Source of the DNA: Asterias amurensis
Lineage: Eukaryota; Echinodermata; Asteroidea; Forcipulatida; Asteriidae
DNA: 64,000 nt
Direction: 5' to 3'
NCBI RefSeq assembly: GCF_032118995.1
Contig: NC_092655.1
Location: 14,208,406-14,272,405, forward strand
The translations under genes and the position numbers were made by a program. Below the pieces are notes generated by a model, which was not told the origin of the DNA, made no database searches, and saw nothing but the letters and a program-made list of their open reading frames with translations. This document shows, piece after piece, positions 5,332 through 49,698 of this stretch (the first letter of the stretch is position 1; each line of letters begins with the position of its first letter).

Positions 5332-5364
5332 TCAGGAGAAAATTGATCATCAAATTCCAAGCAG

Positions 5365-8300
5365 ATGTTGGGGTTTGCACTAAGAGTAAGACCCTGTAGA
5401 ATCCACCTCCAACGAGCCGTCCATCAACTACTGTCTTCTTCTACTTCAACCTGCAAGGCCAAACCTTCTCTGAGAATCTTCGGTATCAGGCAGGCGAGCG
5501 TCACTTCTTCAACCATGAAGCTTGATACGCCAGAGTTCCACGCAGTCTTCACTCCCGAGTTGAGGCAGCTGGCGGAAATCTTTAAACAGAATAATTATGA
5601 GTTGAGGATTGCTGGTGGAGCGGTGCGGGATCTCCTCATGAGGGTGGGTTATTCTTAGTTTGGGTTTTTTTCGCTCAAAGTTCCAGCTAACCCATCTTGA
5701 TGTGCTGAGGTGGCTCTCTTTTATAATCTTATAATGTCTTATCATACATTACTAATGGTGACTATGACAAGACCAATGTTAAAAGAGAGCCATAACAACC
5801 AAACAAGGTTCGCTAAGTTCCAGTTATTTTGGGGCAAATCTCTTAGCAATAGTTCGCTGAAATATAAATTTCTAATTTATCAAAGATTTTTAGTTTTCCT
5901 GTTTGATTGATGCTCAGAGATTATCACAACTAGACGTAGATGTCTCCTTCACTTATATTTCACAGAAGCAACCTCATGACATTGACTTTGCCACCACGGC
6001 CACACCCACCGAGATGAAAAACATGTTCGAACGAGAAGGCATCCGGATGTTGAATACCAAGGGAGAGCAGCACGGCACCATCACGGCAAGACTCAACAAC
6101 AAGGAGAACTTTGAAGTGACTACCCTTAGGGTGGATCGAGTGACAGATGGCCGACACGCCGAGGTGGAATTCACAAAGGACTGGAGAACCGATGCTGAGA
6201 GGAGGGACCTCACCATCAACTCGATGTTCCTCGGTAAGAATACAGGTCCATGATAAGAAATGTTGCTTGGTAAGGGCAAGGACCTTACAAACGAAATGTT
6301 CCTCGGTAAGAACAATGATCCAAGATAGTGTTCCTTGGTAAGAACAAGAATCCAAGATAAGAAATGTTCCTCTGTAAGAATACAGATGGAACATAAGAAA
6401 GGTTCCTTGGTAAGAACAATGATCCAACATAAGACATGGGTTTAAAGTTGCAACAAAGTCAAAACATGGGTTCACTACAACAAGATTTGAGATCATTAAT
6501 GTTGAGGAGTCTGTCAAACCTCCCTGCCCAACACCATGTGTACACGATTGATTTGGCTGTAAAAACATGCACAGTAAAGAGCCCATATAACTCTGGGAAA
6601 CCCCCAGGCATAGAGTTACATGGAGGCCACGGTGTCTGGTGCTCTGGTATTGGCCTTAGTGCCCTTTGCTCAATGAAAATGGCCTTGCCCTGACAATCTA
6701 TGCCAACTATCCAGCCTGGGCAAAGTTCTGATGTAGTAGACAGATGCACTTATTTTAGGCTTGACCTTATGTTGTCTGTTTTATTTTTCAGCTCTGGATG
6801 GTACATTGATTGACTACTTTCAAGGCAAGGAGGACTTGGAAAGGTGCAAGGTGGCATTCGTTGGGAACGCAACATCAAGAATACAAGAGGACTACTTGCG
6901 TATCTTGAGATACTTCAGGTAACAATATGCAAACAGTGGCAGTGTTGACATGGAATCGTATTTTGAGGGCATAATCTCAAGAGTTAAGGCCCAGTCCCAC
7001 TGCAGCGATAACGAAAACGATAATGATCACGACGCAAAGAAAACGCATTCTATTGGTCGAATTGCTCCACGCAGAATACGCACACGCTCATTCAACCTGC
7101 AGTTGGACCAGGCCTTAAGCCCTCAAATTTGAGATAAAAATACGGAGCCAAAAACTCAAGTTTGCATAGCACAATCTGGAGATTGAGCAAATTCTGAAAT
7201 TGCGCTCAACATTACAATTTACAAGAACACTTTTGAAGGTTAGTTTCTAAATTGTTATGTATTTTGTTTAGTGGTTGTATGAAGCCAGGGACGTCTAAAA
7301 AGTTTCCTGTACCTGATTAACTGAAAACATTTAAATTGAAACCATTCAGATGGTAACAGTGGTCCACTGGCCAAATGGCAGTTAAAACACTTGAGGACTG
7401 GTTAAAATCCACACCAAGTTGTCAAGCTGGCTAGTTCAGTGTTGAAAAGCACCCCCATCGCATTTCATTTACAGACTAGTGAACAAAACTGTTGGGACTG
7501 GTAAAATAACAAGCTAACTAGTCCTAACTGGCCAGTCACGAATAAAGTTGAGGGCAAATCGTGTAATGGTTGTTGACAACTCAAATGTTCAGACCGCAAC
7601 TCGAACCCGCAGCCATCAGATCGGAAACGCCAGAGTTCTGGTTCTGTGCACTTGACTGCTCGGCCACGACACGCCACCAAGGCAGGGTCATTTCTGATAA
7701 ACTGATCCATTATTGTGTTGTTAACCTTGAGATTTTACGGCCGCATCGCCAAGGAGCCCAATTCACACTGCTCTAAGACCCTACAAGCAATCAGAGAGAA
7801 TGCCGAGGGTTTGGCCAGGATCTCAGGAGAGAGAATTTGGCTGGAGTTGAAGAAAACGGTCACTGGAAATCATGCTGCAAGTCTGATGGAATGCATGCAT
7901 GATCTGCAACTCACACAGCACATGGGTAAATCAATCATTCATTCATTCGTTTGTTCAGTCACTACCATGATCACCAGCCAATCTGACTCCATCAATTATA
8001 GTGTAATGTCACAAAGTTGTGTTCTATTCTGCGGCAGGAGAGAAGTCTCACGAATTCCCCCGCAAAAAAATACTCCACGCAAGTAGCATCTATTTCGCAA
8101 TGCAAGTTCTCAAAGTGACATTATCAACCCAGCAAATAGACATACACATGGTGTTATCGCCAACCAAATATACAAGTACTACATTGATACATCACCATGA
8201 AATACCTCAAAGCCCACATTCACAAAGATATTAAAAGGTAAAATTTGTTTAACACAAGACTTTGAGAAGTTGTGTGGGCAAAGATTGGTTACTGTTACCA

Positions 8301-12095: not shown

Positions 12096-15000
12096 TCAGA
12101 AGATATTGGGTAGTAGGCCGACAACAACAATGAATCCCATGAATAATGTAAACAGCATCACAGGAGTCAGGATACTATACACTGGCCATATAGCAATGTT
12201 GAGACTGTAATCGAAAGAACAAGAAAACCAGGAGATTAGAAATTTAAACTTGGTAAGCTGACTTTATAAGGCTACATAATAAACAAAATTGTTGATCGTC
12301 CTTTTTTTCGCGTATGGGGGAGGGAGGGAGTTTTTTTGTTTTGCCAAATATGAAATCAAGAATAAAGAAATCATCACAATCACTATAAAACAGAGGGTTT
12401 GTGTGTTTTTGATGTTTTCAATAGTTTTTTGTCAAACAAATTTAACTCCTAGATGACATTTTCTGTAAACCTTTTCAAACAATTGCACAGTGTAGCCCAA
12501 GTAAATATTTGAAGAATTGTTCTTGCTTTGCCAACATGAGTATACAGTGTTTACACACATCGGTGTATGGGTAAAAAACAAAATTAGTATTCTTTATCCC
12601 TGATGCAAATTTAACATCTATTATATTCATATATAGTTTTATTGAAAGATCTGAGCTTACCAAATGGAACCAGCTATAAATGTTCCAGTTGCCAGTGGGA
12701 TTGCCATGGGAACTGCATTTTCCCAATCACTGTTTTTCTTAATCCAGCTCAAGAACACAATGAGGTAACCACCAATGCAAACAGGTATGGCCAGCAAAAC
12801 AAGGCCCAAGTACAACCAGGATCTGAAAAAGAAACACATTCAAACACAACACTTGAGTGGATAAAAAAGAGGAGAACAAATAAATGGTGGCGCTATTTAT
12901 ACTAAATTCTGGTAATGAAATCAAGGATGAACTTAAGCACTGTAGCTCTGAAGCCTCAGGGAAGCAAGGATGCTTTCAACATAGAGCAAGGATGCTTTCA
13001 ATGAACCAGAAAAAATGACATAAACCCCTAACTTCTCATGATAAGTGTTTTGGGGTTATTTTTTGTGCACCATCTATCGTGAAAATAAAACATTGCGCTC
13101 CCAATCTATAATGCCAGGGAATTGACATGAGGGCTCTCTACTTTGTTTTCAATATTGTTTTTTTAGGTATTTCTGAGATCAAATTCACGAAAAAATAAAC
13201 ATACACCATTTAGAATGCCCCACATTAATAATAATTATAATATTGAAGTCTTATATAGCGCACGTATCTGCCAAACAAGGTACTGAGTATACATAAACTT
13301 TCAGAAAGATTGCAGTGATGAATTCTGAGACCCAATTATTTACCACCTTATAAGGGTTTACAAGGTCCTACGGCGCATACAGCAGCCACAGCCAGGAACG
13401 CAGGGGCGAACCCCTTCTCTTTTCGATAAGTGTACTGGGTTCTTTTACATGTGTTACGCAACACATGGGACCAACGGCTTTATGACCCATCCAAAGGACG
13501 AACCAATAGTTAAGTGTCTTGCTTTTGAAGGACACAAGTGTCACTGTCACGGCTGGGGATTCGAACCCACACTCTGCTGATAAGTAACACCAGAGTTTGA
13601 ATTCACTGCTCTTACACATTACACAGTAGTTGTTTTTTCAGTGGACCTTGTTTTAATTCACATGCTTCCAAGGCAGGACTTCCAAAATATTTGTCCACAC
13701 TGTCAAACAGTTTGGAAAAAATCTTGGGGATAAAGCTGTTCATTATTTAACCTACCTGTAAATTCGATGGTCTTCTTTAATAGCAGGGATGAGGTCTGTG
13801 TAATACAGGATTGCAGCAGTTGCGAGTATCCACAGCAATGTCTGGAGGTTGTATGGAGAACTTGGCTTCGTGTTTGTCTCTAACTCTTCACCATCTCGGA
13901 GTTTCTGAAGATCCACTAATCTCTTTGGATCGATGTTTTTAAGATCTATAAAGAAATACATCTGACATTTTTATTAATTTTCTATTAGGCCTATAATACA
14001 CAAATTAATTATTTTTCAAGAAGTTTATCTCACCACACAACATAAGGAACAATGCATTACACAATACAATGCAATGCTCGCACTTCAAAGAAAGTGGGCG
14101 GAGTCAGCTCATTGGATATATTCGCCGTCGGGAGGAGGGTTAGGTTGTTATCGCAACTGTTCATGACTTTACAATCAGCTGATTTCTAATGACTTTAAAT
14201 GATACAAAGAAAGATGTTGGCACCAAGTGACCAAGTGACAATGTATTTCAATGCTATTTTTATGGTGTTTTTACCAAAAGAAAAAAAATTAACATTATTT
14301 AATTAAAAAGATTTGTTATACTAACATTACCAAAACTGGATAACTTTCCGTATGGCGCCACCACTTTTTCACTCAGTTTTACAAAAAGGGATATATCAAT
14401 CAGGTAAATTGGGTACCGGACACTTCGGCACCTTGCAAACTCGGCACCAGCAAACTCGGCACTTAGCAAACTCGGCACCTCGCAAACTCGGCACTCACTC
14501 GGCACCAAGAATGTCGGCACCAAACAAACTCGGCACCGGCCTTTTTTGGTCCAACAAACTCGGCACCAAACAAACTCGGCACCGGCCTATTTTGGTCCAC
14601 CAAGCCAAACTCGGCACCAACAGCAAATACCACCCGAAGAGTGGTATTAACACCATAAAAACTGGTTTAAATTTAGTTAACATAATAAGTAGTTATGCTA
14701 GCTTATATGACCATAACCGCTTCCGAAATTTCGAAAAATTGGCATCAGAGATTTTTTTTCCCCGGAATTCGGAAACTTTACGTCCCCACGTTCACAGTTT
14801 TTGTTTTGTTTTTCGTTTTTTTTAATGTTGGTGAAAGTGCATCGCTATTTGTTGATGTATTGGGCTTTGAAAATGTTAGCGTTTGGTTGACAATGACTTT
14901 TTGATTTTGAAGAGAGTGTGATCTGGGAGCGTGCGGCCGTCGGCCGTGGGGGACTTTTGCCCCACCACGACGGCGGCAGCGACAGTCCAGCGTGCTCACC

Positions 15001-15957
15001 CGGTGTTTAGTGGAATCGTGCGTAATAAAACACAGTGCACGACCGCTGTAACAGAAATTATTTACACGTGCTTTATTTTGAATTAGTGTTTTATTGGATC
15101 AAAGTTTCGTGTAAATGTTCCCCAAAAAATACTTGGACATCGAAATTACGTATTCGACTCAAAAACGTCTTCAAAAGTTTACACAAAATAAATTTAATTA
15201 TTTTGATACAGATTTTTGAAAAGGGCGACCTCACCATGACAGTGAAAAATACATATTAATTATTAGGTATGTATCGTCGGTACGACGTCGAAACCAATAC
15301 ACACGACGCGTCGGGGATCAGGATTTATTTCAATTTCGAACTGGGTGCCGAGTTTTTAACCGTGGGCAGATTGAGCGTTTTTCAACCAGGTGCCGAGTTT
15401 GTAGTTGTGCATGTGCTGAGTTTGTGGGTGCCGAGTTTGCAAGGTGCCGAGGTTGTGGGTGCAGAGTTTGAGAGGTGCCGAGTTTGCTGGTGCCGAGTTT
15501 GCAAGGTGCCGAAGTGTCCGGTATTCGGTAAATTAGATACTATATTATTTTATTTTGAATGAAAAAGTGGTGGCGCCATACGGAAACTTTTCCCCAAAAC
15601 TAAAAAGAAAAAATCTTACCTAATCAGTAATTGATAATCAAATAAATAAATAAACAAAATACATAGGACGAAAAGGGAAAGTTTTACAACTTTAACCTGC
15701 CAATAGGGGGCGTTGTTGCCCATTTCAGATAAAATATTATATTATCTTGTCTTCTTTTAAATTTTAGTAAATTGTGTAAAAAAAAACAGTATAGATACTA
15801 GATAGTCAATACAAAACAGGTAAATACCTCTCCCATAAGCAGCCATGAACACGTCCGCAATCCTTCTTCTTCGGAGTTGGAATTCATCTTCTTCTCTTTC
15901 GGGTATTCTTGAAGAAGTTTCCTCCTGCGAGTCTGTTTGACTGTTGTTTTCAGACAT
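12096..15957 (-). CDS. TMEM128: Transmembrane protein 128
   Basis: Four exons on the minus strand (15828-15957, 13756-13945, 12661-12822, 12096-12204) join in frame to 196 residues; human TMEM128 has 165. Four hydrophobic segments lie at about 77-95, 110-133, 143-165 and 173-193. Family-like stretches include LLWILATAAILYYTDL, the S-W start of segment 2, TGTFIAGSICLNIAIW and the C-terminal LTPVMLFTLFMGF. The first 43 residues are charged and probably cytosolic. The chosen start is the ATG at 15955-15957 (MSENNSQ); an in-frame ATG at 16074 would add 39 residues not expected in the family. The protein is an uncharacterised small membrane protein, possibly endoplasmic reticulum. Intron 1 holds a large foldback transposon. 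The gene is divergent from CFAP43. Confidence 0.9.
13232..13626 (-). repeat. SINE, family A (leucine-tRNA-like head), near full length
   Basis: On the minus strand a tRNA-like head (GGGTTCGAATCCCC B box) is followed by the family body, including CACTTGTGTCCTTC and AAGTGTACTTATCGAAAAGAG-like wording. It ends in a 3' tail with GCGCTATATAAGAC and ATTATTATT. The tail resembles the LINE end at 45290-45345. It lies in TMEM128 intron 2. Confidence 0.75.
14338..15593. mobile_element. Foldback transposon with 8-bp target duplication and subrepeat arms
   Basis: The target CCAAAACT is duplicated exactly at 14330-14337 and 15594-15601. The terminal inverted repeats begin GGATAACTTTCCGTATGGCG and continue through GCCACCACTTTTTCA. 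Inside them each arm is an array of a short unit, CAAACTCGGCACC on the left (about 11 copies, 14425-14625) and its complement on the right (about 9 copies, 15340-15520). The middle (about 14640-15300) has no recognisable transposase. An 8-bp duplication suits hAT-type elements, while the array-in-arm design recalls Foldback / Galileo elements. The superfamily is uncertain. It lies in TMEM128 intron 1. Confidence 0.88.
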
Positions 15958-16074
15958 TTTTATTCGGTTATTTTCGTTTAAATGTACCCGCATCGACTGT
16001 GTCGTGTCATCCGTGCACGAGAGATACATACAAAACGTAACTAGTGGAAATAGTCTGTCCCCCATGGTAAACAA

Positions 16075-16624
16075 GTTCTGTACGTACCACTGTACACCGT
16101 TATCAGAATACAGGGAGCCAACTAGTTGGTCTTCCGGGTTAAAAACAGATACGTAGACTTAATGAAAAGTCGTTAGTCAGTGTCTATTTTGCGGTGAACA
16201 CAATAATACAACACTGTTTCCTATATGGGTACAAATTATTATAAAAACAAACTGTGTAAAATTTGACTGTTTATCACCCAAACCAAAAAGTGAACTTTAG
16301 TGGCCACCATACATCAAAAAGGCTACAAGCGTTTAATGCAGATCCAAACAACCTGCCACACTCACACCAATTACCGACTTGACTTTAAGACTAGGTATTC
16401 AGCTGAACTTTCGCTGGTACTAAATCTTGTAACCCATTCAATTTCGTGTGCGCGTAGTACCAGCTAATATCCTGGCAACAGAGAACGCACGAAGTAGTGG
16501 GACTTTTGCAGTAGGATCGTCAAAACTTCAATGTTTTTGTTATGTGCACGATTTATTTACAAATTTTAGTTCATAATTAAACAAATTTATATGTGATTGT
16601 TTAAGCTGTTGTAGCGTTCAAAGT
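16075..16624. promoter_or_regulatory. Shared divergent promoter interval of TMEM128 and CFAP43
   Basis: The start codons of TMEM128 (minus) and CFAP43 (plus) are 667 bases apart with no other gene between. At 16465-16479 the sequence TAATATCCTGGCAAC keeps the 3' half (GGCAAC) of an RFX X-box, the usual switch of motile-cilium genes, about 145 bases before the CFAP43 ATG. The 5' half is poor, so this is a weak candidate. No TATA box is evident. Confidence 0.45.

Positions 16625-49698
<33,074 letters not shown>

Follow-up and report, generated by a model that had tools for sequence, protein, structure and literature searches.

Nested cut-and-paste transposons in the sea star Asterias amurensis and the probable relation of their array-armed foldback to Phantom/Muta-like Mutator elements

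Foldback transposons are recognized by inverted arms with tandem repeats inside them. In a 64,000-nucleotide stretch of contig NC_092655.1 of the sea star Asterias amurensis (the window, to which all plain positions below refer), the interval 14330-15601 has two such arms, which contain CGGCACC arrays, and an exact 8-bp repeat at each edge. Is this interval one transposon, and which superfamily of transposases moved the arrays? The initial annotation read it as a single foldback with a leaning towards hAT. Here we find that it is two nested elements, the arrays belonging to one and the CCAAAACT termini to the other. What stands of the earlier reading is a non-autonomous, array-armed foldback with an 8-bp duplication; the outer termini and CCAAAACT belong to a 132-bp miniature inverted-repeat transposable element (MITE). 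We hold with fair confidence that these are nested cut-and-paste DNA transposons and that the foldback was moved in trans by a Phantom/Muta-like transposase of the Mutator superfamily.

Architecture of the nested insertions

As initially annotated, the repeat CCAAAACT is present at both edges, at 14330-14337 and, exactly, at 15594-15601. The ends directly inside it (14338-14375 and 15556-15593) form inverted repeats of 38 bp that are 92% complementary. A second exact 8-bp repeat, GGTAAATT, lies directly outside the array-bearing arms, at 14403-14410 and 15527-15534 (8/8 bases). When the window was scanned for 38-bp inverted ends bordered by exact 8-bp direct repeats, this locus gave pairs with 2 mismatches (GGTAAATT) and 3 mismatches (CCAAAACT), and none with fewer than 15 appeared in 20 first-order Markov control windows. 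Weaker pairs in the window had 10 and 11 mismatches (21229-24406 and 21520-24123) and 13 (an AAT microsatellite).

The outer element is interrupted, its left part (14338-14410, plus strand) ending in the 8 bases of the inner target copy and its right part occupying 15535-15593 on the same strand. With one GGTAAATT removed, the joined halves total 132 bp; their alignment is gapless with the uninterrupted 132-bp copies at L013 (90.9% identity) and L025 (97.0%), has one gap column with L020 (93.2%) and has eight with L012 (89.4%). The genome searched, G000, comprises 491.5 Mb in 23 contigs, with the window on contig C8, and terminus patterns were searched throughout it with up to 2 mismatches and a control pattern, reversed in the case of the MITE. 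The MITE terminus gave 5,574 matches vs 0 for the control. An exact 8-bp duplication flanks three of six paired copies, namely the window copy (CCAAAACT), L013 (AAAATCTT) and L012 (GATTTTCA), and is missing from L020, L025 and the short, diverged L009:307-422; a further L009 pairing that spans 4.6 kb was excluded from this count as spurious. Short, with terminal inverted repeats and a target duplication, present in very many copies and devoid of coding capacity, the outer element is of the MITE type. The stretch at 17039-17081, initially described as a worn relative of the interval's terminus, does resemble the MITE terminus (1 mismatch in 18) and not the array element; it is a diverged single end on the plus strand (17040-17078), one end only being found, and its BLAST matches are weak (E 0.015 and 0.19). 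Exact scans of viral contigs with a MITE-terminus string and an array string gave 0 matches, which is not a test of animal genomes.

At other loci the left and right pieces of the MITE adjoin each other, and the left arm, middle and right arm of the foldback occur together without MITE halves at their ends. The exact duplications and the uninterrupted MITE copies establish both insertions and their order: the MITE inserted first and the foldback later inside it, each with an 8-bp duplication. A single foldback of 14338-15593 with composite arms, for example a hAT-like one, would account for the inverted outer termini and the exact 8-bp repeat flanking them, and yet is hardly credible, for it would carry a second exact 8-bp repeat within its arms, 132-bp MITEs exist uninterrupted and without arrays, foldback copies exist without MITE halves, and the stretch from the outer 38-bp ends to the array arms differs between the two sides, which show no match on alignment. 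We rejected the single composite element on the second duplication, GGTAAATT, and the uninterrupted MITE copies. hAT elements have ends of the form CA/TA-G... and duplications of the pattern nTnnnnAn; the foldback has GGG and GAA ends and the pattern fits 3 of 14 tabulated duplications, which speaks against a hAT-like single element and against the earlier hAT leaning. The array-flanked genes described below also point away from hAT and to Mutator.

The foldback family and its arms

The inner foldback occupies 14411-15526 (plus strand, 1,116 bp), and copies at other loci carry different 8-bp duplications. Its ends are asymmetric: GGGTACC on the left (14411-14417, plus strand) and, read inward, GAATACC on the right (15520-15526, minus strand), each followed by GGACACTTCGG. 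The left array (14424-14618, plus strand) has 11 CTCGGCACC units, mostly 15-16 bp apart; in the right array (15344-15513, minus strand), where the units are inverted, steps alternate between 16 and 15 bp and end with 23 and 45. The initial estimate of about 11 and 9 units was accurate for the left arm, and on the right it is matched when 2 mismatches are allowed, 8 units being counted at 1 mismatch. The middle segment (14641-15340, plus strand) is common to the fetched copies, with indels, and its longest open frame is 106 amino acids (aa), on the minus strand. An Rfam search of 14300-17200 gave no match up to E 1.

That the element is repeated elsewhere in the genome, as the initial annotation had asked, was borne out: the foldback terminus TACCGGACACTTCGGCACC gave 262 matches vs 4 for the control. 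The inner left-arm search scored 40 of its 336 candidates and yielded 43 matches, which makes its counts lower bounds; the loci that were read (8 short and 20 fetched stretches) were all picked among the best-scoring matches. L002-L008 coincide with L009-L015, and each place was counted once. Both ends were read in 21 copies, and 15 of these have an exact 8-bp duplication: L001 (the window), L010, L011, L012, L014, L015, L016, L017, L018, L019, L021, L022, L024, L028 and L029. Agreement was 7/8 in L013, 6/8 in L009 and L023, 3/8 in L026 and 2/8 in L027, and L020 has CATGTGA with a one-base shift; random 8-mer pairs at a similar distance agree in 67 of 300,000. One rearranged copy with inverted pieces (L025:3408-4637) was excluded from this count, and the copy at L013:3265-4615, whose duplication is the 7/8 one, is composite and has two tandem left arms.

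All tabulated copies start with GGG on the left (GGGTTCC in L016, GGGTACG in L026) and with GAA on the right (GAACACC in L012, GAATACG in L011), and variants of both ends are also present in the genome-wide lists. Many left ends read GGGTACCGGTCAC and represent a second subfamily. The window copy and that at L009 are 98.6% identical across 1,108 aligned bases, and so high an identity suggests that the element moved rather recently.

The spacing of the units is regular. Over 16 copies, steps of 15 or 16 bp, about 1.5 helical turns, make up 92 of 122 in the right arm and 109 of 155 in the left, and the odd steps recur in the same order among the copies. In 12 copies, left arms are 96.9% identical to one another and right arms 96.8%, and left-right identity is 85.2% within a copy and 85.3% between copies; since the two values agree, the arms within a copy have not been homogenised. 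It is rather unlikely that such arrays arose by passive minisatellite growth and have no part in transposition. Such growth would fit the slight variation in unit number between arms and copies and the degeneracy of some units, but not the predominance of 15- and 16-bp steps or the recurring order of the odd ones (shared descent explains part of this), nor the lack of homogenisation within copies, nor the retention of arrays of a related motif by MULE (Mutator-like element) families of the same genome. At 14508-14521 the left array also contains GAATGTCGG-CAC, nearly the terminus GAATGTCGGTCAC of one of those families (family B below); it may be an earlier end now enclosed in the arm, or a chance likeness.

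Array-flanked MULE genes of the same genome

The MULE domain PF10551 has 12 loci in the genome, all of which were inspected, and CTTCGTACC arrays are present at eight. These form family A (L030, L036, L037, L038, L039 and L041) and family B (L031 and L040). The arrays lie inverted on both sides at seven of the eight, one side being seen at L037, and their steps are mostly 16 bp, with 22 bp and a few others also found in family A. Family A elements begin with GGATGTC-GGACACTTCGTACC on the left and with GGTGTCA or GGTGTCG-GGACACTTCGTACC on the right. Duplications of 8-9 bp were read at five loci: CAATAAAT at L036, with identical flanks at L039 (probably a duplicated locus), GTTCCTTC at L041, the 9-bp GAGTTCACC at L030, and CCGCATTG at L040 when its ends are taken as GAATGTC and CGATGTC. 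That of L031 is ambiguous because of a GC run, and one end is unreadable at L037 and L038. A domain scan of three of the eight proteins (L030, L031 and L040) placed MULE above and PHD below the cut-off in all three; FLYWCH matched below its curated cut-off in the family B proteins L040 and L031 and gave no match in the family A protein L030, which has a ZSWIM1-3 RNaseH-like match below cut-off.

At the remaining four PF10551 loci (L032, L033, L042 and L043, whose element ends were not determined) neither CTTCGTACC nor CGGCACC was found. L032 and L033 are a second MULE type, with frames of 1,021 and 1,045 aa and without CTTCGTACC or CGGCACC arrays, and the two loci are 99.6% identical over 3,395 bp; the L032 protein also matches an Ulp1-type protease domain. 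Among further relatives, L045 is decayed (pieces 48-71% identical to P0001) and its array unit, GTCAACTCGTACCCAA, repeated every 16 bp, is intermediate between the CTTCGTACC and CTCGGCACC motifs, and L046 keeps a short family-A-like array. L044, which has no array, is a diverged MULE relative with a 515-aa frame (36% identity to P0001); a similar match lies about 104 kb away on the same contig, and the two are possibly host-adopted genes.

The ends of the foldback resemble those of the array-flanked MULE families. Its GGGTACC-GGACACTTCGGCACC-TTGC aligns end to end with the GGATGTC-GGACACTTCG-TACC-TTTGC of family A, and an ACTTCG core starts 11 bases in from the end of the foldback, of family A and of family B, the end of B being set at GAATGTC. 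An end-anchored global alignment over 40 bp with family A scored 13 for either foldback arm, the shuffle maxima being -5 and -8 (2,000 shuffles each). The foldback thus shares with families A and B the inverted arrays at about 16 bp, the core offset and duplications of 8-9 bp; unlike it, they encode a MULE-domain protein, their motif is CTTCGTACC where that of the foldback is CTCGGCACC, and family A also has 22-bp steps. An 8-bp duplication (the Mutator range is 8-10 bp) and 7-bp ends followed by subterminal repeats at steps of mostly 15-16 bp are of the Mutator type. From the termini, the spacing, the duplication length and the co-resident array-flanked MULE genes we infer that the foldback belongs to the Mutator superfamily, where it probably forms a new family, non-autonomous, among the Phantom/Muta-like foldback MULEs already known.

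Several results weigh against this assignment. The end-anchored comparison was chosen after the ends had been inspected. Unanchored local comparisons over 140 bp were not significant, with scores of 25 (left arm with A), 24 (right arm with A) and 19 (left arm with B) where the maxima of 500 shuffles were 29, 28 and 30, so the link to MULEs rests on position, step and orientation together. The foldback middle has only short, weak matches to the interiors of L030 and L031. Among the loci examined, no MULE gene had CGGCACC arms, and 37 MULE positions, each representing one locus and taken from 78 matches, are all more than 13 kb away from every listed left end of the foldback and from 100 of the 109 listed right ends; a MULE locus outside that list, C6:17524787, is more than 1 Mb from the nearest listed left end. 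Ends listed at up to 1 mismatch numbered 79 on the left and 109 on the right, and pairing of the 79 with 100 of the 109 gave 44 pairings, some with shared ends, that span 161-1,513 bp except for two, the only ones above 1.6 kb: L029 and a 3,525-bp C6 pairing that reaches across a nearer right end at 956 bp. Unpaired were 36 left and 58 right ends, among which longer elements with a diverged partner end may occur.

Longer copies with a transposase between the same termini, for which the initial annotation had proposed a search, were not found among the copies that were fetched. Two candidates for the autonomous partner were rejected. L029 (3,885 bp) owes its length to a 2,828-bp insert without a frame longer than 105 aa. 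The extra DNA of L014 (3,762 bp) is an inserted non-LTR retrotransposon, with an 835-aa frame matching reverse transcriptase and endonuclease at L014:1212-3716, and the foldback copy that hosts it keeps an exact duplication. Because no transposase was found between the foldback's own ends, membership of the CGGCACC family in the Phantom/Muta-like foldback MULEs is provisional.

The inner foldback could instead belong to a different superfamily that makes 8-bp duplications (P/Galileo-like, Merlin, KDZ or hAT), its arrays being convergent. Galileo itself duplicates 7 bp of its target. Foldback arms are known in the P superfamily from Galileo, which, in the accessible part of its report (PMC3688188), has long arms with tandem repeats, like the foldback here, and a transposase whose THAP domain binds several sites in them; unlike the transposase we propose, that of Galileo is P-type, and the same text describes what the repeats do in Foldback and Phantom as untested. 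A non-MULE assignment would also suit the failure of the unanchored comparison and of the search for a CGGCACC-armed autonomous partner, in which transposase families other than MULE were not searched for. We nevertheless regard it as unlikely, given the end-anchored match to family A, the same core offset, the similar 15-16 bp steps and the co-resident MULEs with 8-9 bp duplications.

With a Mutator-type foldback, we propose the following course of events. The 132-bp MITE inserted at CCAAAACT, and the 1,116-bp non-autonomous foldback later inserted inside it at GGTAAATT; the foldback would have been cut and pasted in trans by a Phantom/Muta-like transposase. That transposase would recognise the 7-bp end with GGACACTTCG as its site of cleavage and core, and would also bind several of the CTCGGCACC units, which follow each other at about 1.5 helical turns. 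Binding to these units is proposed because the repeat sites of Galileo, a P-type element, were shown to bind; staggered insertion would leave the 8-bp duplication.

Genomic surroundings and known systems

A frame at 42862-43434 matches Pfam CC_Cfap43, and frames from about 17220 on presumably represent further parts of the same gene, which probably places the nested transposons upstream of it. Open frames at 5347-6253 we take to resemble a CCA-adding tRNA nucleotidyltransferase, the first of them having no Pfam match. A large inverted repeat of about 3.2 kb at 21210-24425, with arms 21210-21367/24268-24425 (83% complementary) and 21451-21595/24048-24192 (79%), is perhaps another transposon with long terminal inverted repeats, and the AAT-type microsatellite at 38098-40241 is 2.1 kb long and has a higher period of 18 bp.

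In echinoderms, the TU elements of the sea urchin Strongylocentrotus, attributed to Liebermann in 1983, are said to be foldbacks with outer-arm repeats of about 15 bp and 8-bp duplications. For Tetris, a foldback of Drosophila virilis that duplicates 8-10 bp, the authors suggested Mutator, and they also cite a sea urchin foldback (PMC4079207). In a survey of MULEs, Rehavkus has a PHD finger and a minisatellite, and Phantom has none, FLYWCH or SWIM. Closer in structure is Tm1 of root-knot nematodes, for which the available portion of the report (PMC3169594) gives asymmetric 7-bp ends, then GGA, then repeats of 13-15 bp, duplications of 8-10 bp (mostly 9 bp), non-autonomous copies and a Phantom-type transposase in a similarly armed element. 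As far as that portion goes, the sea star foldback shares with Tm1 the asymmetric 7-bp ends, the GGA, the inverted repeat arms and the non-autonomous copies, and differs in its repeat sequence, in a duplication of 8 bp and in that no same-armed autonomous copy was found here. Likewise, Muta1 of Aedes aegypti, in the accessible text of PMC5225508, has a 10-bp end and a 12-bp repeat that is present nine times with spacers of 3-4 bp, and is classed as a type 2 Foldback, and Muta5 of the same mosquito has nine copies of a 15-bp repeat; both make duplications of 8 or 9 bp, they have more than 300 and more than 200 derivative elements, respectively, and transposition of Muta1 was shown in yeast. By that text, the short terminal motif with subterminal repeats and the duplication length are alike in the mosquito and sea star elements; unlike Muta1, the foldback has different motifs and is known here from sequence alone.

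The earlier suggestion of an undescribed family can at most be true of this one family; elements of its kind are known from Tm1, Muta1 and Phantom and, in echinoderms, from the TU elements. Our literature search, with Repbase and most subscription papers outside its scope, returned nothing specific on an echinoderm or sea-star family of this kind, and the literal strings of the elements were absent from the papers searched. We offer tentatively, as possible though doubtful, that at least three foldback-MULE lineages (A, B and the CTCGGCACC family) coexist in which the arrays diverged, perhaps by co-evolution of multi-site arms with a PHD/FLYWCH MULE transposase, while the core offset and the step of about 1.5 turns were kept; the CGGCACC family may then be what remains of an autonomous lineage, separate in its specificity, that has been lost or overlooked.

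For this locus, a one-element reading is corrected to an ordered nesting of two transposons, and the foldback family of A. amurensis is tied inferentially to MULE genes that have long open frames and flanking arrays. Where families with diverged arrays exist beside genes of this sort, the role of the repeats could be put to the test.

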